This document shows, piece after piece, positions 12,349 to 44,394 of a stretch of DNA of 64,000 nt (the first letter of the stretch is position 1; the number at the start of each line of letters is the position of its first letter). Position numbers and translations under genes: made by a program. The DNA comes from Serinicoccus sediminis. Its GTDB lineage: Bacteria > Actinomycetota > Actinomycetes > Actinomycetales > Dermatophilaceae. The stretch covers positions 372,001 to 436,000 of the forward strand of contig NZ_SDVA01000001.1 in assembly GCF_004153545.1 (NCBI RefSeq). Direction: 5' to 3'. Under the pieces are notes generated by a model. The model saw nothing but the letters and a program-made list of their open reading frames with translations. It did not search any database and was not told where the DNA came from.

Positions 12349-12381
12349 GACGTGTCCCGTCCCACGCTCGAAGGCCTAGAC

Positions 12382-14220
12382 ATGTCTGAATACCAGTCGG
12401 CCGCCCACGCCCGGCGAGAGCTTGCCATCCGCACCTTTTGGGTGGTCGTCGACGCGCTCTGCTGGGCATTTGCCCTGATGGTCGCGGTGTGGAGTCGTCT
12501 TGACTTTTCCTTGACCATTTTCACAGAATTAGATTTGTGGATCGGAATGGGTCTTGTAGCTGGGATCCACGCGATGGTCGGCCTGCTGGCGGGCCCCTAC
12601 CTCGTACGCCACATGCGCGGCAGTTTCGACGAGATCTCTGCGCTGACCCGGGCGGCCCTGATCACCGCTCTCGCGCTCATGGCGATCGCCTGGCTGACAC
12701 CGGCCGTCTTCATCCCGCGGTCGAGCGCCCTGCTGGCCCCGGCACTGGCGATCGTCCTGATGCTGGCCGCCCGCTTCTTCGTGCGGACCTACCGCTCGCG
12801 GCTGATCAGCCGCAACCCGAACGGCGAGAAGGTCATCGTCTTCGGCGCCGGGCTCGCGGGCCGCAGGCTCGTGCACAACATGCTGCACGACGACCGCTCG
12901 GAGTTCACCCCCGTCGCCCTGCTCGACGACGACCGCAGCAAGCGCCGGCTCAAGATCGAGGGTGTCCCGGTGGTGGGGACGTTCGCCAAGCTGGGGACGA
13001 CCGTGGAGAAGACGGGCGCGACCTACCTCGCGGTGGCAGTCCCACGTGCCACCCCCGAGCTGCTGCGCGACGTCCAGCGGCAGGCGCGCGAGCTGGACCT
13101 CAAGGTGCAGGTGCTCCCCCCCATCGAGGACTGGCTGCGCCAGACCGACCCGCAGGCGACGGACCTTCGCGATATCAACCTGGAGGACCTGCTCGGCCGC
13201 CGCGCCGTGCAGCTCGACCAGGAGACCATCGCGGACCACCTCACCGGCAAGGTCGTGCTGGTCACCGGCGCCGGTGGGTCCATCGGCTCCGAGCTGTGCC
13301 GGCAGATCGCCAAGTTCGCCCCGGCGAGGCTCATCATGCTGGACCGTGACGAGTCCGCCCTGCACGCCGTGCAGCTGTCGCTGACCGGGCGCGGCCTGCT
13401 CGAGGGTGAAGACCTCATGCTGGCCGACATCAGGGACGCCGAGAACCTGCGCGCGCAGTTCGCGGTCACCCGCCCTGACGTCGTCTTCCACGCAGCGGCG
13501 CTCAAGCACCTCAGCCTGCTGGAGCGCTACCCCAAGGAGGCCTGGCAGACCAACGTGCTGGGCACCCTCAACGTCCTGACGGCCGCTGCGGAGCACGGCG
13601 TGGGGACCTTCGTCAACATCTCCACCGACAAGGCCGCCAGCCCGACCTCGGTGCTCGGCACGAGCAAGCGGATGGCCGAGCGCCTCACCGCAGAGTTCGC
13701 GCTCCGCGAGCCGGGCCGCTACGTCTCGGTGCGATTCGGCAACGTGCTCGGCTCCCGCGGTTCGGTCATCCCCGCCTTCACCGAGCAGATCCGCCAGGGT
13801 GGCCCGGTGACCGTCACCCACAAGGATGTCGAGCGCTACTTCATGCTCATCCCCGAGGCCGCCCAGCTGGTGCTGCAGGCCGGGGCCATAGGCCGCGACG
13901 GAGACGTCCTCGTCCTCGACATGGGCACCCCGGTCAAGATCGTGGACGTGGCGCGAGACCTCATCCGCACGTCGGGCAAGGACATCGAGATCCGTTACAC
14001 CGGACTACGCCCCGGCGAGAAGCTCAGCGAGGTGCTCTTCACCGAGGGCGAGCACTTCCGGACCACCGAGCACCCGCTCATCACGGCCGTCAACGTGCCG
14101 CGGATGGAGCCGGAGCAGGTCCGGTTGCGGCACTTCGGCACCGCCGAGCAAGCTGCAGCGTGGCTCGCTGCACACACGGAACTGACCCCCGAGATGAGAG
14201 TGCTGGAGCCTTCAGAGTGA
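12382..14220 (+). CDS. Membrane NDP-sugar 4,6-dehydratase (CapD/PglF/WbpM type)
   Basis: 612 residues. Four N-terminal membrane helices (about 18-130) are followed by a first Rossmann motif (VFGAGLAGRR, from 153) and the catalytic SDR domain with TGAGGSIGSE at 295-304 and the family-specific STDKA at 414-418. The family converts UDP-GlcNAc to UDP-4-keto-6-deoxy-GlcNAc, the first step to bacillosamine-type sugars. The position usually held by Met or Tyr four residues before Lys429 is Leu425. An earlier in-frame start at 12286 adds only a non-family leader, so the ATG at 12382 is used. It is first in a five-gene overlapping operon. Confidence 0.92.
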   Translation: MSEYQSAAHARRELAIRTFWVVVDALCWAFALMVAVWSRLDFSLTIFTELDLWIGMGLVAGIHAMVGLLAGPYLVRHMRGSFDEISALTRAALITALALMAIAWLTPAVFIPRSSALLAPALAIVLMLAARFFVRTYRSRLISRNPNGEKVIVFGAGLAGRRLVHNMLHDDRSEFTPVALLDDDRSKRRLKIEGVPVVGTFAKLGTTVEKTGATYLAVAVPRATPELLRDVQRQARELDLKVQVLPPIEDWLRQTDPQATDLRDINLEDLLGRRAVQLDQETIADHLTGKVVLVTGAGGSIGSELCRQIAKFAPARLIMLDRDESALHAVQLSLTGRGLLEGEDLMLADIRDAENLRAQFAVTRPDVVFHAAALKHLSLLERYPKEAWQTNVLGTLNVLTAAAEHGVGTFVNISTDKAASPTSVLGTSKRMAERLTAEFALREPGRYVSVRFGNVLGSRGSVIPAFTEQIRQGGPVTVTHKDVERYFMLIPEAAQLVLQAGAIGRDGDVLVLDMGTPVKIVDVARDLIRTSGKDIEIRYTGLRPGEKLSEVLFTEGEHFRTTEHPLITAVNVPRMEPEQVRLRHFGTAEQAAAWLAAHTELTPEMRVLEPSE

Positions 14221-15353
14221 CCGACCGCATCTACCTCTCCAAGGCCGAGGTGACCGAGGTCGAGGAAGAGTACGTCCTGGCCGCTCTTCGTTCAGGCTGG
14301 ATCGCCCCTCTCGGCCCTGACGTGGACGCGTTCGAGCGCGAGGTCGCCGACCGGGTGGGCGTGCGCCACGCGCTGGCTCTGTCGTCGGGCACGGCCGCCC
14401 TGCATCTGGCGCTCATCCACCTGGGAGCCCGACCGGGAACCGTGGTGGTGCTGCCCAGCATGACCTTCGCCGCGTCGGCCAACGCCGTGGTGTACACCGG
14501 CGCCGAGCCGGTGTTCGTCGACAGCAGGGCCGACGACGGCAATGTCGACCCGCACCTGCTCGTCGATGCCGTCGACGCCCTCCGACGTGAGGGACGTGAG
14601 GTCGTCGCGGCCATGACCGTCGATCTCTTCGGACGCGCTTGTGACTACGAGACGATCGAACCCGCGCTGGCCGACCGTGGCATACCTCTTGTGGAGGATG
14701 CCGCCGAGGCGCTCGGCGCGACTTACGGCGGTCGAGCTGCCGGGTCGTTCGGCCGGGCGGCCGCCCTGTCCTTCAACGGCAACAAGATCATGACCACCTC
14801 TGGTGGCGGCATGCTGCTCAGCGACGACGAGGAACTTATCGCCCACGCCCGCAAGCTGTCGACGCAGGCGCGTGAGCCGGTCCCGTGGTACGAACACACG
14901 GAGGTGGGGTACAACTACCGGATGTCCAACATCCTGGCGGCCCTGGGACGCGGCCAGCTGACGAGGCTGGACGACATGATGTCCCGCCGACGCGAGATCC
15001 GGCGACGGTACGCGAGGGCCTTGGACGGAGTGCCCCTCCGCTTCCTCGGTGAGGGGGGCACGAGGTCGGGAGAGATGGACAACTGCTGGTTGACCACTGC
15101 CGTCGTCGACCAGCCGCGGGCCAACATCGACCAGGTTATCGAGGCGCTCAACGACGAGGCCGTGGAGGCCCGGCACCTGTGGAAACCGATGCACCGCCAG
15201 CCCGTCTTCTCCGAGGCGCAGTTCTTCGGGAAAGGCGTGTGCGAAGACCTGTTCGCCAAGGGCCTCACCCTGCCGAGCGGCTCTGGTCTCAGCGATCAGC
15301 AGGTGGATGTGGTCATCGAGCACCTCCGGCGGCTTCTCCCGGACGCCGCATGA
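14217..15353 (+). CDS. DegT/DnrJ/EryC1 sugar aminotransferase (PglE-like)
   Basis: 378 residues from a GTG that overlaps the preceding stop (GTGA). It shows the fold type I PLP pattern: ALSSGTAALHLAL for phosphate binding, VEDAAEALGA with the PLP-pyridine Asp161, and the internal aldimine Lys190 in SFNGNKIMTTSGGG. It probably aminates C4 of the 4-keto sugar made by the upstream dehydratase, using glutamate. Gene order and overlap place it as step two of a UDP-4-amino-4,6-dideoxy-GlcNAc route. Confidence 0.92.
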   Translation: MTDRIYLSKAEVTEVEEEYVLAALRSGWIAPLGPDVDAFEREVADRVGVRHALALSSGTAALHLALIHLGARPGTVVVLPSMTFAASANAVVYTGAEPVFVDSRADDGNVDPHLLVDAVDALRREGREVVAAMTVDLFGRACDYETIEPALADRGIPLVEDAAEALGATYGGRAAGSFGRAAALSFNGNKIMTTSGGGMLLSDDEELIAHARKLSTQAREPVPWYEHTEVGYNYRMSNILAALGRGQLTRLDDMMSRRREIRRRYARALDGVPLRFLGEGGTRSGEMDNCWLTTAVVDQPRANIDQVIEALNDEAVEARHLWKPMHRQPVFSEAQFFGKGVCEDLFAKGLTLPSGSGLSDQQVDVVIEHLRRLLPDAA

Positions 15354-15970
15354 GCTACCGGGGCAAACGCGTCTTGGACCTCGCCGTTGCGGTTCCGGTG
15401 GCACTCATCACGGCACCCATCCAGGCCGTCGTCGCCGGTGCCATCCGCACGACAATGGGCAGGCCCATTCTCTTCAGGCAGGACCGACCCGGACTGCACG
15501 GTGAGACCTTCAGCATCCTCAAGTTCCGGACGATGCTGACCGAGGAGGCCGCGGGGACCTCGCACGACGCCTTGCGACTGACCCCGCTGGGCAAATTCCT
15601 CCGAAGCACCAGCGTGGACGAGCTGCCGACCCTGTGGAACGTCATTCAGGGTGACATGAGCCTGGTCGGTCCCCGGCCCCTGCTCACGAGCTACCTGGCG
15701 AGGTACTCCCCCGAGCAGGCTCGTCGCCATGACGTTCGTCCAGGGTTGACCGGGCTCGCCCAGGTGCGGGGACGCAACAGCCTGACCTGGGAGGAGAAGT
15801 TCGGCTTCGACCTGGAGTATGTGGACTCGCAGTCCCTCCGGCTGGACCTTCGCATCATCGCGGAGACCGTCACGACGGTGGTCCGACGAACGGGCATCTC
15901 GGCTGCGGACAATGCCACCATGCCTGAGTTCCTAGGGTCGTCTGCCACGTCTACGGAACCCCGCGGATGA
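15350..15970 (+). CDS. Bacterial sugar transferase, initiating phosphoglycosyl transferase (PglC-like)
   Basis: 206 residues, the short monotopic form. One N-terminal membrane helix (about 8-32), then RPILFRQDRPGLHG, ILKFRTM, the catalytic Asp-Glu pair at 90-91 in RSTSVDELPTLWN, and DMSLVGPRPLL. It transfers a phosphosugar from UDP-sugar to undecaprenyl phosphate, starting repeat-unit assembly on the membrane. ATG overlaps the aminotransferase stop (ATGA). The size and partners match PglC rather than the long WbaP/CpsE type. Confidence 0.93.
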   Translation: MSYRGKRVLDLAVAVPVALITAPIQAVVAGAIRTTMGRPILFRQDRPGLHGETFSILKFRTMLTEEAAGTSHDALRLTPLGKFLRSTSVDELPTLWNVIQGDMSLVGPRPLLTSYLARYSPEQARRHDVRPGLTGLAQVRGRNSLTWEEKFGFDLEYVDSQSLRLDLRIIAETVTTVVRRTGISAADNATMPEFLGSSATSTEPRG

Positions 15971-16590
15971 GGGGTCTCACCATCGTGGGGGCCGGCGGGT
16001 TCGGCCGGGAGGTATGGTGCCTCGCCTCGCTGCTCAACGACACGGGTGCCCTGTGGGATGTCATCGCGATCCGGGACGACCACCCGGCTCATCACCGCGG
16101 GTTCTGCGACGACCTGGGCGCGGACATCCTGGGACCGGTCGACGAGCTGGATCCCCGGGTGGAAGAGGTCGTGGTCGCCGTCGGTGATCCATCCGTCCGA
16201 CGGTCCATCACGCAACGGCTACCCTCGGGCGCGCGCTTTGCCACATTGGTCCACCCGGGCGCTCATCTCGGCCCTCGCGTCACCCTGGGGGACGGATGTG
16301 TCGTGGCTGCGGGTGCCGCGCTGAGCACCAACATCCAGCTCGGCGACCATGTCCACATCGACCAGAACGCGACCATCGGCCACGACTGCCACCTCGAGGA
16401 CTTCGCCCGGGTCAACCCCGCGGCATGCCTCTCCGGCACGGTGCACCTCGGTCGCGGGGCCCTCGTCGGTGCGAATGCCACGGTTCTGCAAGGTAGGGAC
16501 GTCGGCGCCGGGGCCGTCGTCGGGGCCGGCGCGGTCGTGACCCGGGACGTCACCGCGGCAACAGTGGTCAAGGGAGTGCCCGCCCGATGA
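15967..16590 (+). CDS. Sugar O/N-acetyltransferase, left-handed beta helix (PglD-like)
   Basis: 207 residues. An N-terminal Rossmann-like domain (LTIVGAGGFGREV) and a C-terminal hexapeptide-repeat beta helix with the catalytic-type His in DQNATIGHDCHLEDF, ending GAVVTRDVTAATVVKGVPAR. This layout is that of PglD/NeuD acyltransferases. With the neighbouring genes it would acetylate the 4-amino sugar to give UDP-diacetylbacillosamine or a close relative. Both ends overlap the neighbours by four bases. Confidence 0.92.
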   Translation: MRGLTIVGAGGFGREVWCLASLLNDTGALWDVIAIRDDHPAHHRGFCDDLGADILGPVDELDPRVEEVVVAVGDPSVRRSITQRLPSGARFATLVHPGAHLGPRVTLGDGCVVAAGAALSTNIQLGDHVHIDQNATIGHDCHLEDFARVNPAACLSGTVHLGRGALVGANATVLQGRDVGAGAVVGAGAVVTRDVTAATVVKGVPAR

Positions 16591-17792
16591 CCGTACCGCG
16601 CCTGATGTATGCGGTGACCGCCCCCATCTCGGCCCTCATCTTCCTCGAGGGCCAGCTCAGGGCAGCACGAGAGGCCGGTTTCGACGTGCACGTCCTGTGC
16701 GGAGCCGATCCCTCTGGTCGACTGCTCCACCGGTGCACCGAGGAGGGGGCGACGCTGCATGAGGTGGAGGTGACGCGCACGCCCTCCCTAGGCAGTGATG
16801 TACGCGCACTGCTTCAGGTAGCCGCGGCGCTTCGCAAGGTCCGCCCCCATGTCCTCGTGGCAGGAACGCCGAAGATGAGCCTGCTGGCCTTGGCCGCCGG
16901 CTGCGCAGTTCGTGTGCCGCACCGCGTCTACCTCTGTCACGGATTGCGCTTCGAAGGGGCCTCGGGACTGCGTCGAACAGCTCTGACCCATCTGGAGCTG
17001 CTGTTCTCGCGTCTCGCTCATCACGTCGTGGCAGTCAGCCCGAGCGTGGCCCAGGGACTGCGCACCGTCGGTGTATCGGACGGGCGCGTGACTGTTCTAG
17101 GGAGCGGGTCCCCCAACGGCGTCGACCTCGATCACTTCCAACCGACCTCCTCGGCTGGCAGGGCTTCGGCTCGCAACCAGTTGGGGCTGCCACGCGACGG
17201 TCGGGTTCTGGCCTTCGTGGGTCGAGTCACGGGCGACAAGGGTCTGTCCACCCTCGTAACGTTGGCCGCTGCACTGGAGGACAGCGATGGACGGGGAAGC
17301 AGTCGTGGCTGGCTGCTGATCGTCGGCGACCCCGAACCCCAAGGCGCCCAGGACCAGGCAGACATAGCAGCACTTCTCGCGAACCCCCGGGTCGTCTTTG
17401 CCGGACATCATGACGACATGCGTGTGCCTTACGCCGCGGCGGACGTCCTCGTCCTTCCGACGAGACGCGAAGGTTTGCCCACCGTGGTCCTCGAGGCTGC
17501 CGCTATGCATATCCCCACCGTCGCCTACCGCGCCACCGGCACCGTCGATGCCGTCAAGGACAGCGAAACGGGACTTCTCGTCCCGCAGGGCGAACAGCAA
17601 GACTTCGTGGACGCAGCTCTACGCCTGGTCGACAACCCTGGTCTCAGTGCAAGCTTGGGCAGCAGGGCTCGCCGCGACACCGAGGCGAGATTCGCGCGGA
17701 CCCTCGTGTGGAAGCAATGGACCGACTTCCTCGTCGCGGTGGCCGACGTCCGCTCTGCGAGGGACGTGGCAGCGAAGGCTAAACCCACCTGA
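16587..17792 (+). CDS. Glycosyltransferase family 4 (PglA-like)
   Basis: 401 residues, GT-B fold. The C-terminal donor site carries LVFVGR-type strand LAFVGRVTGDKGL and the EX7E motif REGLPTVVLEAA, followed by PTVAYRATGTVDAV and ETGLLVP. It resembles PglA and other enzymes that add the second sugar to an undecaprenyl-linked bacillosamine. It is the last gene of the operon, and its stop overlaps by 14 bp the stop of the convergent sulfotransferase. Confidence 0.9.
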   Translation: MTVPRLMYAVTAPISALIFLEGQLRAAREAGFDVHVLCGADPSGRLLHRCTEEGATLHEVEVTRTPSLGSDVRALLQVAAALRKVRPHVLVAGTPKMSLLALAAGCAVRVPHRVYLCHGLRFEGASGLRRTALTHLELLFSRLAHHVVAVSPSVAQGLRTVGVSDGRVTVLGSGSPNGVDLDHFQPTSSAGRASARNQLGLPRDGRVLAFVGRVTGDKGLSTLVTLAAALEDSDGRGSSRGWLLIVGDPEPQGAQDQADIAALLANPRVVFAGHHDDMRVPYAAADVLVLPTRREGLPTVVLEAAAMHIPTVAYRATGTVDAVKDSETGLLVPQGEQQDFVDAALRLVDNPGLSASLGSRARRDTEARFARTLVWKQWTDFLVAVADVRSARDVAAKAKPT

Positions 17793-18678
17793 CAGTTTTC
17801 GCAGCCGATGACACCGCTCGGAGAACGGCCAGTTCCATACGGTTGAGCCGAGCATCGTCGTGCCGGCGCTCCTTCACCTCGCCACTCCAGCCGGACCGTC
17901 GGAAACGGTTACCGGCGATCGCGTGGTCCCAGTCTTCCAGCGTCCTCACCTCTTCCGTCTCTGCGCCCGTGAGCCTGGAGACTGCCGCATCCGGGGAGGC
18001 CACCAGGTCCGGGTAAGGCAGCCGAAGGATCTTGACACCCGCGCTCCCGGCACGGCGACAACTACGGGCCGCGTTCCTGTTGGCCCTCAGCCACGCCACC
18101 ACGGTCCGGGGCTTCACCCACCGAGCTGTGGCGTCTCCGTCACCGAACTCCAACTGGACGTTGTTGCCGTGAGCAGTGCTGACCACGACCTCGGGCAGAG
18201 CGCGCCAGAGCTGCACGACAGCGGTCGGTCTCAGTCCTGGGTCGTTCAGGTGCAGATCGAGTCGCCGACGCCCCCCCGCGGTCTTGGACGAGTCCACCAG
18301 CCGAGCGATTCCTCGGCGTCCCAGGGCCTCATACACGGCTCGCCAGTCCTCGTAGTAGGAGTCGATGTCGTCCCTGGCGCCCTGCATCTCTGCACCCTCG
18401 GTCGTGCGTGCCATGTCGTGAAGAGAGCGGCCGCGAGCACGAGCCACCTCCTCCAAGACTGAGCCCCACACGGCACACTCCGCAACAGGCCGTCCACACG
18501 AGCAGGGCCGTCCCACCTGAGCCCAGTCGAACAGGTGGCACAGCTCACCTGCGCTGAGGGCTCCCATCTTCTTCGCCAGTACCGCATCAAGCAGGCTAGA
18601 GCCGCTCCGTCCGTATCCCGCGATGAACACAATGCCCGGGTACACCTCAGTCCTCCGCCCTCTCGAGTCTCTCGTCAC
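17779..18678 (-). CDS. Sulfotransferase family protein (polysaccharide sulfation candidate)
   Basis: 299 residues from a GTG overlapping the flippase stop (GTGA). The 5'-phosphosulfate-binding loop is GYGRSGSS at 21-28. A C-x-C-x6-C-x2-W motif (Cys59, Cys61, Cys68, Trp71) and VDSSK follow; the same motif recurs in the sulfotransferase at 47880. It lacks a membrane helix and is probably cytosolic. Being last in a run cysD-cysN-polymerase-flippase-sulfotransferase, it most likely sulfates a lipid-linked glycan from PAPS. The acceptor is not knowable from sequence. Confidence 0.85.
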   Translation of the reverse strand: MTRDSRGRRTEVYPGIVFIAGYGRSGSSLLDAVLAKKMGALSAGELCHLFDWAQVGRPCSCGRPVAECAVWGSVLEEVARARGRSLHDMARTTEGAEMQGARDDIDSYYEDWRAVYEALGRRGIARLVDSSKTAGGRRRLDLHLNDPGLRPTAVVQLWRALPEVVVSTAHGNNVQLEFGDGDATARWVKPRTVVAWLRANRNAARSCRRAGSAGVKILRLPYPDLVASPDAAVSRLTGAETEEVRTLEDWDHAIAGNRFRRSGWSGEVKERRHDDARLNRMELAVLRAVSSAAKTVRWV

Positions 18679-19865
18679 TGCCGCACTCCTCCGTCCGGGT
18701 CGCCCGCTCGCGCGACGACCCAAGTCGCCAGGCACACCAAGGAGTAGGCACCCATGGCGGCCGCAAGACCGGAGCGTGCAGCCAGGGCGACGACTGGTAG
18801 ACCCACGACACCCGCCCACACACGGACGCGCGCTACGTGCTCGACTCCACCCTTGATCCGGGCGACGAGCTCGATGCCCACTGTCAGCTGGTTGAAGAAG
18901 GCGCCGATGAGGATGAACGGCAGAGCCGTCTTCGCCACCCGCCAGGTGTCACCGAGCACTGCCTCCCCGAGCGCATCAGGCACCACGACGGCCAAAACAA
19001 GGCAGGGCCCCAGCACGGCGCACAGCATCAAGGGCCATGAGCGACGGTAGGCCACCGGTAGGTCACCCTGGGTCTGATGCAACCGTGTGCCACGGACGAG
19101 GTAGGGAAGGCGCAGACTCTCCGGGATCTGCAGTGGGAGACTCGCGAGTGTCTGCGCTCCCCGGAAACTGGCCAGCATGACCGGGCCGCCGGTGAAACTC
19201 ATCGCGATCGGCGCCCCCAGACGGAAAGCCGACAGACCCATGTATCCCTTGAGAGTGCCTTTCCCCATCTCACGGCCGCACCGCAGCACCAGGTGGACGC
19301 CGTCGACGGCAGCACGACGGCTCGTCAAGGCGAGCGAAGCCGACAGGGCGACGACGCCGTACGCCGCGCCTGCGACCGCAAGGATGCCACTGATGCCGGT
19401 TGGACGGATGACCAGTGCCATGGCGAGAAGCACGATGAGTGCCCCGGCGGACAGGACGCTCGCCGATGCCACTTCTTGCGCCCTGTAGCACCGGAACCGC
19501 AGAGCATCCACCAGCAGAAGGAGGGTGAGGTACGCCGTCGTCCAGAACACGGTGTCCCAAGGCAGACCGAGGACGATGCAGACCACCACGACGACGACAC
19601 TCGATGCGACACCCAGTGCCACGGCGATGACGGCCAGGCCGGTGCCCAGCTTTTCGAGGGACGTCCGCGGGTCAGCGACGACGATCCACCCACCCGGCCC
19701 CGCCCGGAAGGCACCGACGATCAGGAAGACGACCAGTTGCAGGGCTGCGAAGGCGGCGAACTGCGCCACCGGGAGGTTGCGTGCGGCCAGGACCGTCACC
19801 AGGAGGGACGCAGCGGCCAGGCAACCGTGGTCAATGACGGGCAGCAAGCGGCGCATCTTCACCAC
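18675..19865 (-). CDS. Wzx-like polysaccharide flippase
   Basis: 396 residues with about 11-12 membrane helices and the MATE/PST-like layout (AARNLPVAQFAAFAALQL at the start, the second half after LVRGTRLHQTQG). It probably flips an undecaprenyl-linked repeat unit across the membrane. The start overlaps the 3' end of the polymerase gene by 35 bp (26 bp if Met4 is used). Sequence similarity to classical Wzx is weak, so other lipid-linked substrates remain possible. Confidence 0.75.
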   Translation of the reverse strand: MVKMRRLLPVIDHGCLAAASLLVTVLAARNLPVAQFAAFAALQLVVFLIVGAFRAGPGGWIVVADPRTSLEKLGTGLAVIAVALGVASSVVVVVVCIVLGLPWDTVFWTTAYLTLLLLVDALRFRCYRAQEVASASVLSAGALIVLLAMALVIRPTGISGILAVAGAAYGVVALSASLALTSRRAAVDGVHLVLRCGREMGKGTLKGYMGLSAFRLGAPIAMSFTGGPVMLASFRGAQTLASLPLQIPESLRLPYLVRGTRLHQTQGDLPVAYRRSWPLMLCAVLGPCLVLAVVVPDALGEAVLGDTWRVAKTALPFILIGAFFNQLTVGIELVARIKGGVEHVARVRVWAGVVGLPVVALAARSGLAAAMGAYSLVCLATWVVARAGDPDGGVRQ

Positions 19866-21168
19866 GATCCGCGGTCTCGCGCAGGTCGGAGCGGGTCACG
19901 GCCCACACAAAGGCGGCCAGCGCCCAGGCGAACCGGGCATTCTCGAGATTCAGAGTGACCATGCCGAGAGCCAGTCCGGCAACCGCGAGCAGGAGCCCCG
20001 CACCTTTCCCGCCTGGGATTCTGACGACCTTGAGCGCCAACAGACCCCAGAGGGAGAAGAACGCCCCGAAGCCGACGAGACCCAGTTCCACACCGACGCT
20101 GAGGTACGTGTTGTGCACCACGTTCCCTCGGGATGCGTCAACCAGCCCGGCGCTGAGCACCTGAAACTGTCCCGGCCCCACGCCGAGGAGAAGGTTATCT
20201 CCCCACAACCTCACGCCGAACCCCCACAGCTCCCGCCGAGCGCTGTCGAGGCCCCCTTCGTTCGAGACGATCCGTTGCACGCTGGGACTCTCGAGGACCC
20301 CGGCCACCAGCTGCCTTCCCCAGGTCGCCAGGACCAGAGCCGCCGTCACCGCGACGGCCAGGAGGCGGATCTTGTTCCGCCACGACATCCAGGCGACAGC
20401 CACGAGGACTGCCGCCACGAGGGCGACGGCACCTCCACGGGAGGCCGTCGTCGGGATGGCGAGAAGAGCAATGCCCGTCGCGAGGAGCGGCAACGAGCGA
20501 CCGGTCCGGTCGTGAAGCCACAACGAGACACCCGCCGACACGAGCAGGTAGATCGCGAACAAGTTGGGGTCGTCGAAGGAACCACTGTTCCGGAAGGCTG
20601 TTTGCCGGGTGAGTGCACTGATCCCGAGCAGCGAGGACCCCAGAGCTGCCAACGCGATCGCGGCACTGGCCCAGGACCACACCGTGACGAAGAGATAGTC
20701 CCCTCTTGCGACCGAGGCCGTCATCAGCCTGGCCAGCAGCACCAGGTAGACCAGGGCCACGCACAGCTTCAAGATGGTGAGAACCGCTGACGACAGGACG
20801 ACGGTACTGGTCAGGCTGGCCCACCACAGAGACAGGACCAGCGAGGTCAATGTCAGAAACACGTACCCGTAGAGAAGGTTCGAGTCGGGACGCACCCAGA
20901 AGGCATGTCGTCGCAAGGCGACGAGAGCCAGCAGGGGGAGCAACGCGTCCGCGATGGACAGGTTCACCTCGGTCCCGCCGAGGTTCACGATGCTCATGAA
21001 GGGCATCGCTGCCACGACCAGACACAGAACGAGGCGCTCAGCCCGTGCTTCGCGCCCCCGAAGCCCGGCGCTGGACCTCGGGGGTCGGTCGGTCCGCCCA
21101 GACACCGTGGTGCGCAAAGCAGCCGATCTACCTGCGCCGTGTGGGGCTCTCATTCGTTCGGACCCCAC
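19831..21168 (-). CDS. O-antigen ligase/polymerase family protein (Wzy/WaaL-like)
   Basis: 445 residues with about 12 membrane helices. The large extracytoplasmic loop and the GVGPGQF...HNTYLSVGVELGLVGF segment mark the Wzy_C (O-antigen ligase) family. An N-terminal cytosolic tail of about 40 residues is rich in Arg. As the organism has no LPS, polymerisation of repeat units or ligation to a wall component is expected outside the membrane. It lies 39 bp downstream of cysN on the same strand. Confidence 0.88.
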   Translation of the reverse strand: MGSERMRAPHGAGRSAALRTTVSGRTDRPPRSSAGLRGREARAERLVLCLVVAAMPFMSIVNLGGTEVNLSIADALLPLLALVALRRHAFWVRPDSNLLYGYVFLTLTSLVLSLWWASLTSTVVLSSAVLTILKLCVALVYLVLLARLMTASVARGDYLFVTVWSWASAAIALAALGSSLLGISALTRQTAFRNSGSFDDPNLFAIYLLVSAGVSLWLHDRTGRSLPLLATGIALLAIPTTASRGGAVALVAAVLVAVAWMSWRNKIRLLAVAVTAALVLATWGRQLVAGVLESPSVQRIVSNEGGLDSARRELWGFGVRLWGDNLLLGVGPGQFQVLSAGLVDASRGNVVHNTYLSVGVELGLVGFGAFFSLWGLLALKVVRIPGGKGAGLLLAVAGLALGMVTLNLENARFAWALAAFVWAVTRSDLRETADRGEDAPLAARH

Positions 21169-21207
21169 TTCGCGACGTCTAGACCGAGAGTGCTGGCGAA
21201 GATCGGC

Positions 21208-22476
21208 TCAGCCCCTGATCATCCCCGCCCCGACCGTCACCCCGCTGGCGGGGTCGATCAGGATGAAACTACCGGTGACACGGTTCTGCTCGTAGAGGTC
21301 GACCATGAGTGGCTGCTGCACTCTCAGACGGACACGACCGAGCTCGTTCAGACCGATCTGCTCTGCTTCCTGGTCGCGGTGCAAGGTGTTGACGTCCAAC
21401 CGGTAGTCAATCTCCTTGACCAGCGTCTTCACGGTGCGGGTGGTGTGCTTGACCAGCAGCTTGGCCCGCGGCTTGAGCGCACCCGGCGACATCCAGCACA
21501 CCATGGCGTCGAGGTCCTGCGTCTGCTCAGGCTGGTTGTTGACGCGGGCAATCATGTCACCGCGGCTGACATCGACGTCGTCGGCAAGGCGCACGGTCAC
21601 CGACATCGGGGGGTACGCCTCGTCGACCTGCCGGTCGAAAGAATCGATGGCCTCGATGGTGCTCGTCATGCCGCTCGGAAGAACGATGACCTCGTCACCC
21701 GCCTTCATGACGCCCCCGGCGACCTGTCCGGCATAGCCCCTGTAGTCGTGGAACTCGTCCGACTTCGGCCGGATGACGTACTGCACGGGGAAGCGCACGT
21801 CACGCATCTCACGGTCGGAGCCGATGTAGACGTGCTCGAGGTGGTGCAGCAGGCTGGTCCCGCCGTACCACGGCATCTTCTCGCTGCGGGTCACGACGTT
21901 GTCGCCCTGGAGCGCCGAGATAGGGATGACCGTGAGGTCGGGGACGTCCAGCTTGCGGACGAAGTCAGTGAACTCCGCCTCGATCTGCCGGAAGGTCTCC
22001 TCCGAGAAATCGACGAGGTCCATCTTGTTGACGGCCAGCACCAGGTGCGGCACCCGCAGCATCGACAGGATGACGGCGTGCCGACGTGACTGCTCGGTCA
22101 TGCCCTGCCGGGCGTCGACGAGCACCAGGCCGAGGTCAGCGGTGGACGCGCCGGTCACCATGTTGCGGGTGTATTGCACGTGGCCCGGGGTGTCGGCGAT
22201 GATGAACTTGCGACGGGGTGTGGCGAAGTAGCGGTAGGCGACGTCGATGGTGATGCCCTGCTCGCGCTCACTGCGTAGGCCGTCGGTCAGCAGCGCGAGA
22301 TCGGTGTAGTCGAAGCCCTTGTCCTTCGAGGTCCGCTCGACCGACTCCAGCTGGTCCTCGAAGATCGCCTTGCTGTCCAGCAGCAGCCGCCCGATGAGCG
22401 TCGACTTGCCGTCGTCGACGGAGCCTGCGGTCGCGAAGCGCAGCAGGTCCATCCCGGTCTCGGTGCCTGTGCTCAT
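21208..22476 (-). CDS. cysN: Sulfate adenylyltransferase GTPase subunit
   Basis: 422 residues, the CysN-only length without a fused APS kinase. The GTPase motifs are G1 AGSVDDGKST, G2 region GITIDVAYRYF, G3 DTPGH, and G4 NKMD, followed by EF-Tu-like beta-barrel domains. With CysD it makes adenosine 5'-phosphosulfate from ATP and sulfate, driven by GTP hydrolysis. The ATG overlaps the cysD stop (ATGA). A polymerase gene follows after 39 bp, unusual company for a gene usually found with assimilatory reductases. Confidence 0.95.
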   Translation of the reverse strand: MSTGTETGMDLLRFATAGSVDDGKSTLIGRLLLDSKAIFEDQLESVERTSKDKGFDYTDLALLTDGLRSEREQGITIDVAYRYFATPRRKFIIADTPGHVQYTRNMVTGASTADLGLVLVDARQGMTEQSRRHAVILSMLRVPHLVLAVNKMDLVDFSEETFRQIEAEFTDFVRKLDVPDLTVIPISALQGDNVVTRSEKMPWYGGTSLLHHLEHVYIGSDREMRDVRFPVQYVIRPKSDEFHDYRGYAGQVAGGVMKAGDEVIVLPSGMTSTIEAIDSFDRQVDEAYPPMSVTVRLADDVDVSRGDMIARVNNQPEQTQDLDAMVCWMSPGALKPRAKLLVKHTTRTVKTLVKEIDYRLDVNTLHRDQEAEQIGLNELGRVRLRVQQPLMVDLYEQNRVTGSFILIDPASGVTVGAGMIRG

Positions 22477-23387
22477 CAGAAGTAGCCTTCCTTCTTGCGG
22501 TCCTCCATGGCGGCCTCGGAGAACTTGTCGTCGCCACGGGTCGCGCCGCGCTCGGTGATGCGGGAGGCCGCGACCTCCTCGATGATCTTGTCCAGGTCGT
22601 CGGCGTCGGACTCCAGGCACCCGGTCAGCGTCAGGTCGCCGACCGTGCGGAAGCGCACCTGACGCTCGGTCACCGTCTCTCCGTCACGCAGCGGGTTGTA
22701 CTCGCTCTCTGAGAAGAGCATGCCGTTGCGCTCGAAGACCCGCCGCTGGTGGGCGTAGTAGATCGAGGGGATGTCGATGGCCTCGCGGCGGATGTAGTCC
22801 CACACGTCGAGCTCGGTCCAGTTCGACAGGGGGAAGACGCGCATGTGCTCACCCTCGTGGATGCGCCCGTTGTAGAGGCTCCACAACTCGGGCCGCTGGT
22901 TCTTGGGGTCCCACTGGCCGAACTCGTCACGGTGGGAGTAGACACGCTCCTTGGCGCGAGCCTTCTCCTCGTCACGACGACCACCACCGAAGGCGGCGGT
23001 GTAGCCCTCCTCCTCGATGGCGTTGAGCAGGGTTCCGATCTGCAGCCGGTTGCGCGGCGTCTTGCCGTCGTCGACGACGATACCGTCCTTGATGGCCTGC
23101 TCGACCGACGCGACGTGCAGCCTCAGGCCCAACCGCTCGACCCAACGGTCCCGGGTGGCGAGCACCTCGGGGAAGTCGTAACCGGTGTCGACCTGGAGGA
23201 CCGGGAAGGGAACCTTCGCGGGGTAGAACGCCTTCTCCGCCAGCCTCAGCATGACAATGGAGTCCTTGCCGCCGGAGAACATGAGCACCGGCTTCTCGAA
23301 CTCCGCCGCGACCTCACGGAAGATGTGGATCGACTCGGCCTCCAGCTCGTCGAGCTGGGAGAGTCGGTAGATGCCGTCGTCTGTCAC
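22476..23387 (-). CDS. cysD: Sulfate adenylyltransferase catalytic subunit
   Basis: 303 residues. The PP-loop SGGKDS in VLMFSGGKDSIVMLRLA, VDTGYDFPEV, AFGGGRRDEEKARAKER, and SNWTELDVWDYI are CysD signatures. It adenylylates sulfate in complex with CysN. The start is a GTG at 23387 with GGAAAGG upstream. It is the first gene of the minus-strand run that continues into cysN, polymerase, flippase and sulfotransferase. No sulfite or APS reductase gene is nearby, so the APS is probably meant for PAPS formation. Confidence 0.96.
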   Translation of the reverse strand: MTDDGIYRLSQLDELEAESIHIFREVAAEFEKPVLMFSGGKDSIVMLRLAEKAFYPAKVPFPVLQVDTGYDFPEVLATRDRWVERLGLRLHVASVEQAIKDGIVVDDGKTPRNRLQIGTLLNAIEEEGYTAAFGGGRRDEEKARAKERVYSHRDEFGQWDPKNQRPELWSLYNGRIHEGEHMRVFPLSNWTELDVWDYIRREAIDIPSIYYAHQRRVFERNGMLFSESEYNPLRDGETVTERQVRFRTVGDLTLTGCLESDADDLDKIIEEVAASRITERGATRGDDKFSEAAMEDRKKEGYF

Positions 23388-23482
23388 TCCTGCGCCTTTC
23401 CCCTACGGATGCTGCGGCCTGCACGATATCGGACTTGGGTGCCCAAACACGCATCGCGAGGCCGGAAGGTGGATTCGACGCT

Positions 23483-23509
23483 CCCAGACGCTTAATGTAA
23501 GCGGCTGGG
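23483..23509. promoter_or_regulatory. Inverted repeat in the cysD / BY-kinase divergent region
   Basis: CCCAGaCGCTTA-atg-TAAGCGgCTGGG forms 12-base arms with one mismatch. The right half covers a TAATGT hexamer (23493-23498) that could serve as the -10 of the plus-strand kinase gene. It may be an operator controlling one or both divergent operons, or a leader hairpin. Confidence 0.4.
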
Positions 23510-23555
23510 TCCGCACGTCCCCGGACCAATCCGTATCTGAAGCACCGGAGTGTGT

Positions 23556-24974
23556 GTGGAACTCGCTGACTACCTGCATCTGATCCGTCGACAGTGGCGT
23601 CTGATCATCGGCGTGACCCTGGCGGTTGTCCTGATCACCGCTGTGATCACGGCGTTGACAACGCCCCAGTACCGGGCGCAGGCGCAGGTGTTCGTGTCGA
23701 CGTCGGGAGGAGATTCTGCGACCGACTTGGCGCAGGGATCTACCTTCGCTCAGCGGCAGGTGGCCACGTATGCCGACATCGTCACCACCCCCATCGTCCT
23801 GGACCCCGTGGCCGACGAATTCGGTCTTGACGGGTCGGCGGCCCTGTCTGGGCGCACCACCGCCCAGGTTCCCGCCGGGACGGTACTCATCAACCTGAGC
23901 TTGACCGACGAGGACCCTCAGAGGGCGGCCGACCTCGTCAACAGCATCGCCGCGCAGTTCTCGCGGACCGTCCAGGATCTCGAGCGCATCGAGGGATCGG
24001 ATACCAGCCCGGTCAAGGCCACTGTCGTCCAGCCCGCGACGGCGCCCGGTGCCACCGACACCCCTGATGTACCGCGGAACCTCGTGCTCGGAGCCGTCCT
24101 CGGACTACTGCTCGGCATTGGCGCAGGTCTGCTCCGGGACGTCCTCGACGCCCGAATCAAGGGGGAGTCTGATGTTCAGAGGGTCACCGGCGAGCCCATC
24201 GTGGGCGCCATTGCCTACGACAAGACCGCACCCGAGCACCCCCTCGTCGTCGAGATCGACCCGCACAGCCCCAGGGCGGAGGCCTTCCGCACGCTGCGGA
24301 CCAACCTGCGCTATATCGATGCCGACAGCCAGCCGAAGACCGTGGTCTTCACGTCGACCATTCCCGGCGAAGGCAAGTCCACGACGACCGCCAACCTGGC
24401 CCTGACCCTGGCAAAGTCCGGGGCCACGGTCTGCCTCATCGAGGGAGACCTTCGTCGCCCGCGGTTGCTGGACTACCTCGGTCTGGAGAACGCGGCGGGC
24501 ATGACTGATGTCCTGGTGGGGCGCGCCGATCTCGACGACGTGCTCCAGCCCTGGGGCGAGAGCATGTGGGTGCTGGGCTGCGGTCCCATCCCGCCCAACC
24601 CCAGCGAACTGCTGGGATCAGCCGCCATGACCCGCCTCATCGAGACCCTTGAAGGGCGCTTCGACTACGTCATCATTGACAGCCCCCCGCTGCTGGCCGT
24701 CACCGACGCCGCGATCCTGTCGACCCAGGCCGACGGCGTCATCGTCATCGTCGGAACCAAGCTCGTCCGTCGTGACCAGCTCGACCGGGCGCTGGGCAAT
24801 CTGCAGAAGGTGGACGCCGACGTGCTGGGCCTCGTGCTGAACCGCCTGCCCATCAAGGGCCCGGACGCCTACTCCTACGCCTACGAGAGCTACCGCTCGG
24901 ACGCGGCTCTCGAGGCCCAGGGGAAGCGCGCGAAGTCACGCCGGGCCCGCCGCAAGAGCAAGCAGAGCAGCTGA
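23556..24974 (+). CDS. Polysaccharide co-polymerase fused to BY-type tyrosine autokinase
   Basis: 472 residues from GTG 23556, placed 5 nt after CGGAG; a GTG two codons earlier is the alternative. The N-terminal Wzz domain has membrane helices at about 14-35 and 175-195. The cytosolic ATPase has Walker A GEGKST at 271-276, Walker A' LIEGDLRRP, and Walker B VIIDSPP. Four closely spaced tyrosines (YSYAYESY) near the C-terminus are the expected autophosphorylation cluster. It sets polymer chain length and export by phosphorylation cycles, like CpsCD or Wzc. Confidence 0.93.
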   Translation: MELADYLHLIRRQWRLIIGVTLAVVLITAVITALTTPQYRAQAQVFVSTSGGDSATDLAQGSTFAQRQVATYADIVTTPIVLDPVADEFGLDGSAALSGRTTAQVPAGTVLINLSLTDEDPQRAADLVNSIAAQFSRTVQDLERIEGSDTSPVKATVVQPATAPGATDTPDVPRNLVLGAVLGLLLGIGAGLLRDVLDARIKGESDVQRVTGEPIVGAIAYDKTAPEHPLVVEIDPHSPRAEAFRTLRTNLRYIDADSQPKTVVFTSTIPGEGKSTTTANLALTLAKSGATVCLIEGDLRRPRLLDYLGLENAAGMTDVLVGRADLDDVLQPWGESMWVLGCGPIPPNPSELLGSAAMTRLIETLEGRFDYVIIDSPPLLAVTDAAILSTQADGVIVIVGTKLVRRDQLDRALGNLQKVDADVLGLVLNRLPIKGPDAYSYAYESYRSDAALEAQGKRAKSRRARRKSKQSS

Positions 24975-25871: not shown

Positions 25872-27023
25872 TCAGCCGGCGAAGTCGGGCTCGCGCTCCC
25901 CCACTCCCAGCAGCTGGGCGAGCGCCGCGACGCAGCGCGTGGTGGCGTTGCCGTCGCCGTACGGGTTGACCGCATGCGCCATCTCCCTGTAGGCGCCCGG
26001 GTCGTCGAGGAGCAAAGACACCTGTCGGACGACGTCATGCTCCTGCGTGCCGATCAGCCGCACCGTGCCCGCAGTCACGGCCTCGGGGCGTTCGGTGTTG
26101 GAGCGCAGCACGAGCACCGGCTTGCCCAGTGACGGCGCCTCCTCCTGGACTCCTCCGGAGTCCGTCAGCACCACCGTGCTCGCCGCCATGAGACGGGTGA
26201 ACTCGCCGTAGGCCAACGGCTCGGTCACCAGGACGTTGGGCAGCCCGTCCAGAGCCGGCAGCAGGGCCTCGCGCACCAGCGGGTTGCGGTGCACCGGCAG
26301 CACGACTTCGATGTCGGGATAGCGCTCGGCCAGGACGCGCAGGGCACGGCCCACCCCCTGCATCGCCGTCCCCCAGCTCTCCCGGCGGTGCGTCGTCACC
26401 AGGAGCACCCGTCGGCCCTCCTCCAGGGCGACCAGCCGCGGGTCGCTGAAAGGCACGCCCTGGCGTGAGGTGTGCAGGAGCGCGTCGATGACCGTGTTGC
26501 CGGTCACGACCACGTCGTCGGCAGTGATGTTCTCCCGCAGCAGGTTGTCCCGTGCCGTCGCCGTCGGGGCCAGGTGCAGCGAGGCCAGTTGGGAGGTCAC
26601 GCGCCTGTTGGCCTCCTCCGGGAAGGGAGACCGCAGGTCGCCGCTGCGCAGCCCGGCCTCCAGGTGCACGACGGGGATCTCTCGGTAGAACGCCGCCATC
26701 GCGGCGGCTGCCACCGTAGACGTGTCGCCCTGCACCACGAGGGCGTGGGGTGACGCCTTCACGAGGACCGGGTCGAGACGCTCGAAGACCTTGGCCATGA
26801 GCCCGTTCAAGGTCTGCCCGTGGGCGAAGACGTCGAGGTCGACGTCGGGGACGATGCCGAAGATCTGGTTGACCTGGTCCAGCATCTCGCGGTGCTGGCC
26901 GGACACCACGGCGACCGGGTCGAATCTCGGGTCCTCGCCCAGGCCGCGCAGCAGGGGTGCCACCTTGATCGCCTCGGGCCGGGTGCCGTAGACGGTCATG
27001 ACCCGCAGGGGCCCCGGGGTCAT
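25872..27023 (-). CDS. wecB: UDP-N-acetylglucosamine 2-epimerase (non-hydrolysing)
   Basis: 383 residues, normal WecB/MnaA length. TVYGTRPEAIKVAPL at the N-terminus, SGQHREMLDQV, VQGDTSTVAAAAMAAF, HLEAGLRSGD, PFPEEANRR, TTHRRES and SGGVQEEAPSLGKPVLVLR are all conserved. It interconverts UDP-GlcNAc and UDP-ManNAc in the cytoplasm. Its ATG overlaps the wecC stop, so the pair makes UDP-ManNAcA. It may also feed teichoic-acid linkage units. Confidence 0.96.
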   Translation of the reverse strand: MTPGPLRVMTVYGTRPEAIKVAPLLRGLGEDPRFDPVAVVSGQHREMLDQVNQIFGIVPDVDLDVFAHGQTLNGLMAKVFERLDPVLVKASPHALVVQGDTSTVAAAAMAAFYREIPVVHLEAGLRSGDLRSPFPEEANRRVTSQLASLHLAPTATARDNLLRENITADDVVVTGNTVIDALLHTSRQGVPFSDPRLVALEEGRRVLLVTTHRRESWGTAMQGVGRALRVLAERYPDIEVVLPVHRNPLVREALLPALDGLPNVLVTEPLAYGEFTRLMAASTVVLTDSGGVQEEAPSLGKPVLVLRSNTERPEAVTAGTVRLIGTQEHDVVRQVSLLLDDPGAYREMAHAVNPYGDGNATTRCVAALAQLLGVGEREPDFAG

Positions 27024-32140: not shown

Positions 32141-32199
32141 GGGGTCCTCCTGGTGTCAGTGGTGGTCGGGCAGGTGGGGGTGGTGGGTGACCCGGTGGG

Positions 32200-34149: not shown

Positions 34150-34231
34150 CGGTCCGCCTTTCCTCGGTCGCTGACCCAGGACCATATAGGAGGCCGGTGA
34201 CGCCCGACCTGTCAGAGCCCAGGGGTGCCGG

Positions 34232-35326: not shown

Positions 35327-35342
35327 ACATCGAGGGGACACC

Positions 35343-41826: not shown

Positions 41827-41828
41827 CG

Positions 41829-42731: not shown

Positions 42732-42736
42732 GGGTC

Positions 42737-44272: not shown

Positions 44273-44394
44273 GCAACTCCTGTCATCGATGCCCCGGCAT
44301 GCGGTCCCGACCACAGGGCCTCTCGTATGCTACGTCAATGAGAGGCTCTTCGAGATAGCGAGGGGGACCACCTCGCTACGGGAGGAAATTCGTG

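Follow-up and report, generated by a model that had tools for sequence, protein, structure and literature searches.

Organization of the cysD-ST1 gene group

The genes of an ATP sulfurylase lie next to polysaccharide genes in the window, by which we mean the whole stretch of 64,000 nucleotides of Serinicoccus sediminis DNA analysed here, and this raises the question of whether sulfate activation at this locus is dedicated to the sulfation of a surface polysaccharide, as the initial annotation had proposed. The five genes that it had placed in one row, cysD (22476..23387), cysN (21208..22476), wzy1 (19831..21153), wzx1 (18675..19865) and ST1 (17779..18678), were found to be collinear on the minus strand, the flippase-like assignment of wzx1 being the weakest among them. 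The 303-aa CysD, subunit 2 of sulfate adenylyltransferase, scored above the cut-offs of TIGR02039 (435 bits, cut-off 396.6) and NF003587. CysN, the 422-aa GTPase subunit of the enzyme, reached 566 bits against TIGR02034 (cut-off 336.1) and stayed narrowly under the cut-off of the stricter model NF003478 (583.7, cut-off 590); an APS kinase fusion was absent from it. Both subunits of the ATP sulfurylase CysDN fit curated CysD and CysN models. cysD and cysN overlap by 1 bp, and the gap between cysN and wzy1 measures 39 or 54 bp, depending on whether wzy1 starts at the GTG of 21168 or at the ATG of 21153, respectively.

The wzy1 product is a polymerase of the Wzy/O-antigen-ligase type (PF04932, 56.2 bits, cut-off 31.7). 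The wzx1 product is a putative flippase by hydropathy, with approximately 10 hydrophobic segments; a Pfam search extended to E<=1 gave no match, its structure prediction was poor (pLDDT 44), and its profile comparison with other Wzx proteins was not significant (probabilities 5.6% and 1.0%). Matches to wzx1 were present in 2 of 186 family genomes, its own genome counted. ST1 was barely over the PF13469 cut-off (28.5 bits, cut-off 27). Its predicted structure was of moderate quality (pLDDT 65.8), and all 13 Foldseek matches at E<=0.001 were sulfotransferases, with low TM-scores of 0.36-0.46. R159 and S167 were common to ST1, its homologue in the relative G012, and ST4. By its PF13469 match and predicted fold, ST1 is a PAPS-dependent sulfotransferase of putative activity.

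A promoter or terminator between cysN and wzy1 was looked for in the sequence, and none was found. In the interval 17000-24000, no promoter-like site was detected (0.5 expected), and the three terminator-like sites (2.4 expected) were all intragenic. The folding of the cysN-wzy1 interval was no better than that of shuffles (z 0.50), and a terminator separating the two genes was rejected on the site scan and the folding. A five-gene operon from cysD to ST1 is a plausible prediction.

The wider polysaccharide locus

The five-gene stretch is the middle of a larger locus of about 12.3-50.7 kb. Besides three further sulfotransferases and a second Wzx/Wzy/Wzz set, that locus encodes an APS kinase, a CysQ-like phosphatase, and an anion permease. 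Plus-strand genes before ST1 were assigned to a membrane UDP-sugar 4,6-dehydratase of the PglF/CapD type (12379..14220; PF02719, 346 bits), a DegT/LegC-like sugar aminotransferase (14223..15353; PF01041, 318.5 bits; TIGR04181, 331 bits, below its cut-off), an initiating undecaprenyl-phosphate sugar phosphotransferase (15350..15970; TIGR03025, 232 bits, below its cut-off), a PglD/NeuD-type sugar acetyltransferase (15967..16590; TIGR03570, 191 bits, above the cut-off), and a family-4-type glycosyltransferase (16587..17792; PF00534, PF13692). On the other side of cysD lie a Wzz protein with a BY-kinase domain for chain length control (23550..24974, plus strand; PF02706, TIGR01007) and, on the minus strand, wecB for UDP-GlcNAc 2-epimerase (25872..27023; TIGR00236, 443 bits, above the cut-off) and wecC for UDP-ManNAc dehydrogenase (27020..28270; NF008286, 555 bits, cut-off 459). 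With Wzy (PF04932), Wzz (PF02706), and an initiating transferase of the TIGR03025 type, although below that cut-off, these three components of a Wzx/Wzy-dependent pathway are present, and wzx1 is the candidate for the left-module flippase.

The remaining genes of sulfate activation were located further right. The APS kinase gene cysC (34232..35326, plus strand; PF01583, 182.7 bits) encodes a 185-residue N-terminal extension; the PUA- or Sat-like identity considered for this extension was rejected, as two N-terminal pieces had no Pfam match at E<=1. The genome search returned cysC as its single APS kinase match. It is followed by a cysQ-like PAP phosphatase gene on the same strand (35340..36113; PF00459, 104.9 bits; TIGR01331, 103 bits, below the cut-off of 228.8) and by a minus-strand gene for a DASS/SLC13-type anion permease with TrkA_C domains (36118..37884; PF03600, PF02080, PF00939), a putative sulfate importer whose match to TIGR00785 was partial and below the cut-off.

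The right-hand module comprises wzx2 (40315..41826; PF01943, 41.5 bits), ST2 (41829..42731; PF13469, 50.4 bits; PF00685, 49.3 bits), ST3 (44392..45324; PF13469, 41.3 bits), wzy2 (46561..47883; PF04932, 44.4 bits), ST4 (47880..48821; PF13469, 41.3 bits; PF00685, 28.6 bits), and a family-2 glycosyltransferase gene (48814..49734; PF00535, 81 bits), all on the plus strand, together with a second Wzz-type protein on the minus strand (42737..44314; PF02706, 28.1 bits, cut-off 25.5). Two labels given by eye in this region were dropped: GH26 for 38082-39473, where Pfam gave PF02018 only and no solved structure matched, and APH-like for 45143-46564, which had no Pfam match. By gene content, with cysD, cysN, cysC, and four PF13469 genes among wzx, wzy, and wzz, this is a predicted sulfated-polysaccharide locus. 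The proposed tie of sulfate activation to a Wzx/Wzy polysaccharide was supported, since the sole APS kinase found, the CysQ-like gene, the permease, and four of the five PF13469 sulfotransferases of the genome lie in the window, and the arrangement recurs in the genus. The exclusive use that had been proposed along with it was not supported, as described below.

A single ATP sulfurylase was found in the genome

A genome search with PF01507 gave three loci, which were the window CysD and two CysH, and the search for a Sat-type sulfurylase (PF01747) gave none. cysDN is on contig C16, and CysH and sulfite reductase are on C7 and C27. On C7, sulfite reductase adjoins a CysH of the PAPS-reductase type; the second CysH, on C27, passed the general PAPS-reductase model NF002537 (267, cut-off 154). 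Both CysH genes and the sulfite reductase are open frames without stops. No cysN match was present in the 18-19 kb around each of these CysH loci, and the only cysD match there was the C7 CysH itself (30%). The window cysDN adjoins neither cysH nor sulfite reductase, and so does not form an assimilatory cysDN cluster. In this genome of 97 contigs (completeness given as 100), in which a second cysDN could conceivably have been missed, no second cysDN was found. The window pair being the only one found is what the initial annotation itself had named as speaking against its claim of dedication.

With no ATP sulfurylase found other than CysDN, and with sulfite reductase and two CysH encoded elsewhere, dual use is likelier than dedication. 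We infer that the CysH and sulfite reductase genes would be supplied by the window cysDN. The adjacency of cysDN to wzy1 is a tempting sign of dedication but does not prove it.

Distribution of CysDN, CysC, and sulfotransferases in relatives

Among 31 genomes of the genus (Ornithinimicrobium in the GTDB sense), 13 had a strong CysC match (E below 1e-50), and all 13 also had a PF13469 match and a CysD that was 82-100% identical to the window CysD. In 11 of the 13, cysC had a sulfotransferase match on its own contig at a distance of no more than 30 kb; the nearest one on that contig was 94 kb away in G002 and 79 kb away in G007. These distances were taken from part of the sulfotransferase matches, those set aside being second matches in one gene or more distant from cysC. 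Sulfotransferase matches without CysC were seen in G010, G017, and, below the cut-off, G024. PF01747 had no match in any of the 31 genomes. CysC co-occurred with sulfite reductase in 11 of the 13 genomes, whose species are not independent. G002 and G007 contain CysD and CysC and lack CysH and sulfite reductase; in these two genomes, cysDN-cysC of the window kind would be sulfation-only. G030 contains a CysH-adjacent CysD, 65% identical to the window CysD, and neither CysC nor a sulfotransferase, and the same pattern was repeated in G014. G018 has both kinds of cysD. In 10 of the 31, the only CysD is of the window type although CysH-type matches and sulfite reductase are present.

ST1 as a direct query of the genome contigs found no relative, and relatives in other genera were therefore gathered via an APS-kinase alignment. 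Among the best 80 of 548 CysC loci in other genera, 47 had a CysD match near CysC, and none had a CysH or sulfite-reductase match at E 1e-8. A home-made sulfotransferase profile matched in 20 of these 80 loci; its 25 source sequences, 4 from the window and 21 from 25 chosen places of which 4 yielded nothing, included some in the wrong frame, so that its absences were not used. In G062, G120, and G050, which belong to other genera of the family, CysC has an open frame of 184-228 residues, and among the matches listed its domain is separated from that of CysH by 77-92 bp. CysC presence was therefore rejected as a family-wide marker of sulfation, and CysC alone does not mean sulfation.

These data allow for cysDN-cysC being dedicated to sulfation in S. 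sediminis too, with cysteine sulfur coming from reduced sources and with CysH and sulfite reductase idle or otherwise fed. The set occurs in this way in G002 and G007, and its CysC relatives lie near CysD and not near CysH in the 80 loci. However, the intact frames of two CysH and sulfite reductase need APS or PAPS, and the genome yielded no other ATP sulfurylase to make it, so that we regard such dedication as unlikely.

It is also quite doubtful that cysDN is an ordinary assimilation pair standing by chance beside a polysaccharide cassette, in a neighbourhood without functional meaning. Its being the only ATP sulfurylase found, the replaceability of the cassette behind it (see below), and the correlation of CysC with sulfite reductase would fit; nevertheless, four sulfotransferases share its window, cysDN is kept in G002 and G007 without the reductases, and G014 and G030, whose CysD adjoins CysH, have neither CysC nor sulfotransferases. 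Very improbably, the sulfotransferases target a glycolipid, a protein, or a small molecule: the best ST1 Foldseek matches were tyrosylprotein sulfotransferases, an olefin-synthase sulfotransferase domain, and Stf0, but this fold is uninformative on substrate, the sulfotransferase genes of both modules, like those of relatives, have wzx, wzy, wzz, and glycosyltransferase genes around them, and capsule-locus sulfotransferases accompany the solved sulfated capsules described for Cobetia and Vibrio.

Proposed role of the locus

Surface-polysaccharide sulfation is well supported as the predicted role of the locus. We consider it likely that one or two Wzx/Wzy surface polysaccharides are synthesised and sulfated through this locus, and that the cell at large also draws on the sulfate-activation enzymes encoded there. 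The DASS-type permease would import sulfate, and CysDN and CysC, as assigned to their families, would make APS and PAPS, respectively. ST1 in the left module and ST2-ST4 in the right module may then carry out PAPS-dependent cytoplasmic sulfation of lipid-linked repeat units, which Wzx would flip and Wzy would polymerise under Wzz/BY-kinase control; the CysQ-like enzyme would remove PAP. Since CysDN is the sole ATP sulfurylase found and the reductive genes lie elsewhere, cysteine synthesis should, to judge from the gene content, likewise be supplied from the shared APS/PAPS pool. The locus suggests that one enzyme feeds both primary sulfur nutrition and surface sulfation, and it offers a testable gene set, recurring in relatives, in a Gram-positive genus.

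Comparison with known systems

In rhizobia, the ATP sulfurylase/APS kinase NodPQ is tied to the sulfation of a glycan signal; it is an extra copy beside the assimilatory one, and the product is a lipo-oligosaccharide. PAPS genes inside polysaccharide loci are already known from the Cobetia and Vibrio capsules as described; together with Actinoplanes wps-1, these are the nearest counterparts of the locus studied here. In Cobetia marina KMM 1449, whose sulfated polymer structure has been solved, the capsule locus likewise combines PAPS genes (cysN/cysC, cysD, cysQ), a sulfate permease, and sulfotransferases; however, this organism is Gram-negative, its capsule depends on an ABC transporter with kps genes, and its cysN/cysC is bifunctional (PMC11766843). 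Vibrio sp. KMM 8419 similarly carries cysC, cysN, cysD, and sulfotransferases within its locus, but it is Gram-negative with an ABC transporter, and its cys genes are reported as second copies, whereas in S. sediminis no ATP sulfurylase or APS kinase was found besides those of the window (PMC11641403).

The closest actinomycete case is wps-1 of Actinoplanes missouriensis, a Wzx/Wzy/Wzz cluster with two sulfotransferases that resembles the right-hand module by gene content alone (PMC13390465). wps-1 carries a GH26 gene, while in the right-hand module Wzx, Wzy, Wzz, and sulfotransferases were found and GH26 was not confirmed. A neighbouring APS-kinase-family gene is needed for normal sporangia; in the account of that study used here, this gene is tied to sulfur amino acids, not to PAPS, and cysDN is unmentioned (PMC13390465). 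The synechan xss cluster of Synechocystis PCC 6803 also encodes a Wzx/Wzy exopolysaccharide with two sulfotransferases, and sulfate was measured in the polymer; it differs in being cyanobacterial, and its main text, as far as consulted, does not name PAPS, ATP sulfurylase, or APS kinase (PMC8205485). Bacterial sulfated polysaccharides have been described as nearly limited to cyanobacteria (PMC13390465, PMC8205485); nonetheless, sulfated capsules of marine Gram-negatives are published (PMC11766843, PMC11641403). The view that such an arrangement is rarely described in Gram-positive bacteria agrees with the literature found, in which the 2026 Actinoplanes study is the one case: it raises actinomycetes as producers of sulfated polysaccharides without proof, sulfate being unproven there (PMC13390465).

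An exchangeable cassette downstream of cysDN

Comparison with relatives delimited a 3.6-kb exchange cassette, wzy1-wzx1-ST1 (17594..21204), of which wzy1 is the first gene. At the right edge, 10 of the 12 relatives compared lost DNA similarity no more than 6 bp away from the cysN stop codon; the left edge rests on the comparison with G020. The order from cysDN to the flippase is similar in G012 and G013, and in G020 a cysD fragment precedes the same flippase type. The comparison shows a conserved cysDN followed by a replaceable wzy1-wzx1-ST1 cassette joined at the cysN stop codon. More tentatively, it is possible that in ten species of the genus a sulfation-type CysDN in a surface-polysaccharide locus came to be the sole ATP sulfurylase, so that sulfate assimilation has its one point of entry in a locus whose cassettes change fast. 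Under this reading, exchangeable polysaccharide-sulfotransferase cassettes would be flanked by duplicate cysDN copies, which gene conversion would keep alike and which may anchor the swapping of these cassettes.

Organization of the five-gene cluster

All five genes named in the initial annotation were found on the minus strand at 17779-23387. cysD (22476-23387) and cysN (21208-22476), which overlap by 1 bp, scored above the cut-offs of TIGR02039 and TIGR02034, respectively; CysN narrowly missed NF003478. The wzy gene (wzy1, 19831-21153) matched PF04932 and is separated from cysN by 54 bp, or by 39 bp if it starts at an upstream GTG. The wzx-like gene (wzx1, 18675-19865), assigned by hydropathy and position only, overlaps wzy1 if its own GTG start is taken. 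The sulfotransferase gene ST1 (17779-18678) was slightly over the PF13469 cut-off; its start forms a 4-bp GTGA overlap with wzx1 and its 3' end overlaps a convergent glycosyltransferase gene by 14 bp. A sequence scan of 17000-24000 revealed no promoter-like sites and three terminator-like sites (2.4 expected), all within genes, and the cysN-wzy1 interval folded no better than shuffled sequences. It is plausible that the five genes form one operon.

The predicted structure of ST1, a model of moderate quality, displayed a sulfotransferase fold, and the structure search gave 13 PDB matches at E<=0.001, every one a sulfotransferase (TM-scores, 0.36-0.46). R159 and S167, which have the spacing of PAPS-binding sites, were common to ST1, its homologue in the relative G012 and the right-module sulfotransferase ST4.

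CysDN and sulfur assimilation

The initial annotation had further proposed that cysDN is dedicated to surface-polysaccharide sulfation. In the window's genome, there was one CysD, one APS kinase match and no Sat-type sulfurylase; four of the five PF13469 genes (seven match rows) lie within the window. PF01507 was found at three loci, the window CysD and a CysH on each of contigs C7 and C27. The C7 CysH, adjoined by sulfite reductase, scored 265 against TIGR02057 (PAPS reductase; cut-off, 254). The C27 CysH scored 267 against the general model NF002537 (cut-off, 154) and higher against TIGR02055 (APS reductase; 223.9) than against TIGR02057 (176.1), both under cut-off; a CC and a CxxC pair, as in the APS-reductase type, were seen in it by eye. 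The stretches examined around both CysH genes contained no CysN match, and the CysD query matched solely the C7 CysH itself (30%) near C7 and nothing on the C27 stretch. Since no other CysD or CysN was found around either gene, CysH and sulfite reductase seem to rely on APS/PAPS from the window locus. With no second cysDN next to these cysH genes, and with CysH and sulfite reductase encoded elsewhere, the only cysDN found in this genome is probably not dedicated to sulfation, an outcome that the initial annotation had itself counted against its proposal.

Distribution in the genus

Strong CysC (E below 1e-50) was present in 13 of the 31 Ornithinimicrobium genomes (GTDB sense). Each of these also encoded a CysD with 82-100% identity to that of the window (88% for the disrupted second copy of G012) and had at least one PF13469 match. 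Such a match occurred in 3 of the 18 genomes without strong CysC (G010, G017 and G024, the last below cut-off), and the association gave a Fisher p of 3e-6, kinship ignored. G002 and G007 possess CysD and CysC; because neither a CysH match nor sulfite reductase is present there, the use remaining for their CysD-CysC set is presumably sulfation. Two findings count against a simple story: the nearest same-contig sulfotransferase in G002 and G007 is 94 and 79 kb from cysC, and CysC also correlates with sulfite reductase (11/13 genus genomes).

In G030, CysD adjoins CysH, without CysC or sulfotransferase, and G014 shows the same pattern; the G030 CysD is 65% identical to the window's. G018 has both the window-type and the CysH-adjacent cysD. 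Ten of the 31 genomes (G000, which is the window's, G003, G004, G009, G012, G013, G016, G020, G027 and G028) carry CysH-type matches and sulfite reductase with window-type CysD only, CysH and CysD outside G000 being separated by match length and position only. The sulfurylase family PF01747 was found in none of the 31.

CysC and CysD beyond the genus

The CysC alignment was scanned beyond the genus, and the best 80 of 548 relatives were analysed, with flanks of at most 10 kb, many shorter. Of the 80 matches, 33 extended into the CysC N-terminal extension (start at query residue 97 or before); the rest covered the kinase part or little more. This extension (34232-34786, 185 residues) gave no Pfam family at E<=1. 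A CysD match was found in the searched flanks of 47 of the 80, and a CysH or sulfite-reductase match at E 1e-8 in none. Another 15 (L085, L087, L090, L091, L094, L095, L097-L100, L103, L104, L106, L109 and L111), from genera of the Streptosporangiaceae, had Wzy2-, ST2- and Wzx2-like matches beside CysC and no CysD in the searched flanks. Most CysD near related CysC were 77-93% identical to the window's; those of L079, L088, L096 and L108 were lower (60-68%). A tree built from 64 CysD copies (G002/L040 and G018/L031 being the same genes, each entered twice) paired the genus' two CysH-adjacent CysD (63-65% to the window's) with each other; because it was rooted on this pair, all that follows is that the pair does not nest within the remaining copies. 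Since CysC can adjoin CysH in other genera of the family (genomes G062, G120 and G050, among the matches listed), CysC alone is not diagnostic of sulfation.

The wzy1-wzx1-ST1 cassette and the cysDN copies

Cassette edges were placed by blastn pieces over 250 bp between the window and 12 relatives. For 10 of the 12, DNA similarity ended at the stop codon of cysN (21202-21208; 21196 for the second G016 copy), and for G009 and G007 it ended within cysN, at 21216 and 21251. The left edge, 17593, was placeable from G020 alone. Given these edges, wzy1-wzx1-ST1 is, as judged by DNA similarity, a cassette of 3.6 kb. The stop codon of the far cysN in G012 and G013 directly adjoins a different flippase-type gene, with an ST1 homologue (36%) next in G012; at the equivalent site, G020 has this flippase type together with a gene that matches PF13469 strongly (105.8 bits). 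The flippase label comes from the G020 protein, which scored 24.6 bits against PF01943, below the cut-off of 28.2, and is 55% identical to that of G013. Wzx1 matches were found in 2 of 186 family genomes, the window's own included.

In eight of the 12 relatives (G003, G004, G009, G016, G018, G020, G027 and G028), cysDN lies directly beside cysC, divergently. G016 has two full-length cysDN copies (L023/L024) flanking a Wzz-WecBC-permease block, G012 (L027) has two, apparently with a disrupted cysN in one and a disrupted cysD in the second, and G020 (L028) has a full-length cysDN and a 102-codon cysD fragment; the extra copies and the fragment edge the same polysaccharide-gene block. In the window and G013, the sole remaining copy is the one distant from cysC. 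In relatives such as G003, a cysDN copy separates cysC from the histidine kinase gene; the window has none there, and similarity is interrupted across approximately 175 bp (34099-34274). The two copies were 99.7% identical in G016 and 98.3% in G012, and at most 95.0% identical to any other genome's. This closer likeness within than between genomes suggests gene conversion or recent re-duplication.

The wider locus and a proposed pathway

The five genes occupy the middle of an approximately 38 kb locus. To their left, plus-strand genes (12379-17792) encode a UDP-sugar dehydratase, an aminotransferase, an initiating sugar phosphotransferase, an acetyltransferase and a glycosyltransferase. To their right are Wzz with a BY-kinase (from 23550) and WecB and WecC (25872-28270), predicted to yield UDP-ManNAcA. 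An amino acid permease, a two-component system (kinase read by eye) and a camelysin-like gene lie between WecBC and the sulfur set, namely the APS kinase CysC (34232-35326), a CysQ-like phosphatase (35340-36113) and a DASS-type permease (36118-37884). A second polysaccharide module (40315-49734) encodes Wzx2, ST2, Wzz2, ST3, Wzy2, ST4 and a family-2 glycosyltransferase; it is present without ST3 in G003 and G020 at 70-89% protein identity, with only 41-43% for the gene at 45143-46564.

From these families, assigned by scores, we infer each reaction of a putative pathway. The permease would import sulfate, CysDN would convert it to APS and CysC would convert APS to PAPS. The sulfotransferases may sulfate lipid-linked units at the cytoplasmic side, which Wzx would flip and Wzy polymerise, and the CysQ-like enzyme would remove PAP.

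Capsule loci of Cobetia marina (PMC11766843) and Vibrio KMM 8419 (PMC11641403) combine PAPS genes with sulfotransferases, with sulfated structures solved, and sulfate has been measured in synechan, the Wzx/Wzy polymer of Synechocystis (PMC8205485). Actinoplanes missouriensis wps-1 has Wzx/Wzy/Wzz and two sulfotransferases, a neighbouring APS-kinase-family gene is required for normal sporangia, and its authors state that a sulfated polysaccharide still awaits verification (PMC13390465). The right module (40315-50663), with Wzx/Wzy/Wzz and three sulfotransferases, resembles wps-1 in gene content. Because of these precedents, this kind of locus is already known, here as a variant; the novel part is the reading of cysDN as probably dual-use and possibly a cassette anchor. 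Among the matches listed (open-licence literature, titles and abstract openings), no further polysaccharide cluster with cysDN from actinobacteria was found; they included a Mycobacterium tuberculosis paper on sulfur metabolism (PMC3141025) that contains cysN and sulfotransferase terms.

At 31520-32739, a signal-peptidase-like gene (by eye; without Pfam match) adjoins the camelysin/TasA-like gene (PF12389), accompanied by the response regulator and histidine kinase; this group may possibly be a matrix-protein system within the locus. Adjoining the polysaccharide locus, 50664-56012 encodes a 1782-residue secreted-type protein whose PKD-like segments recur and whose C-terminal part holds two nearly identical blocks, as read by eye.
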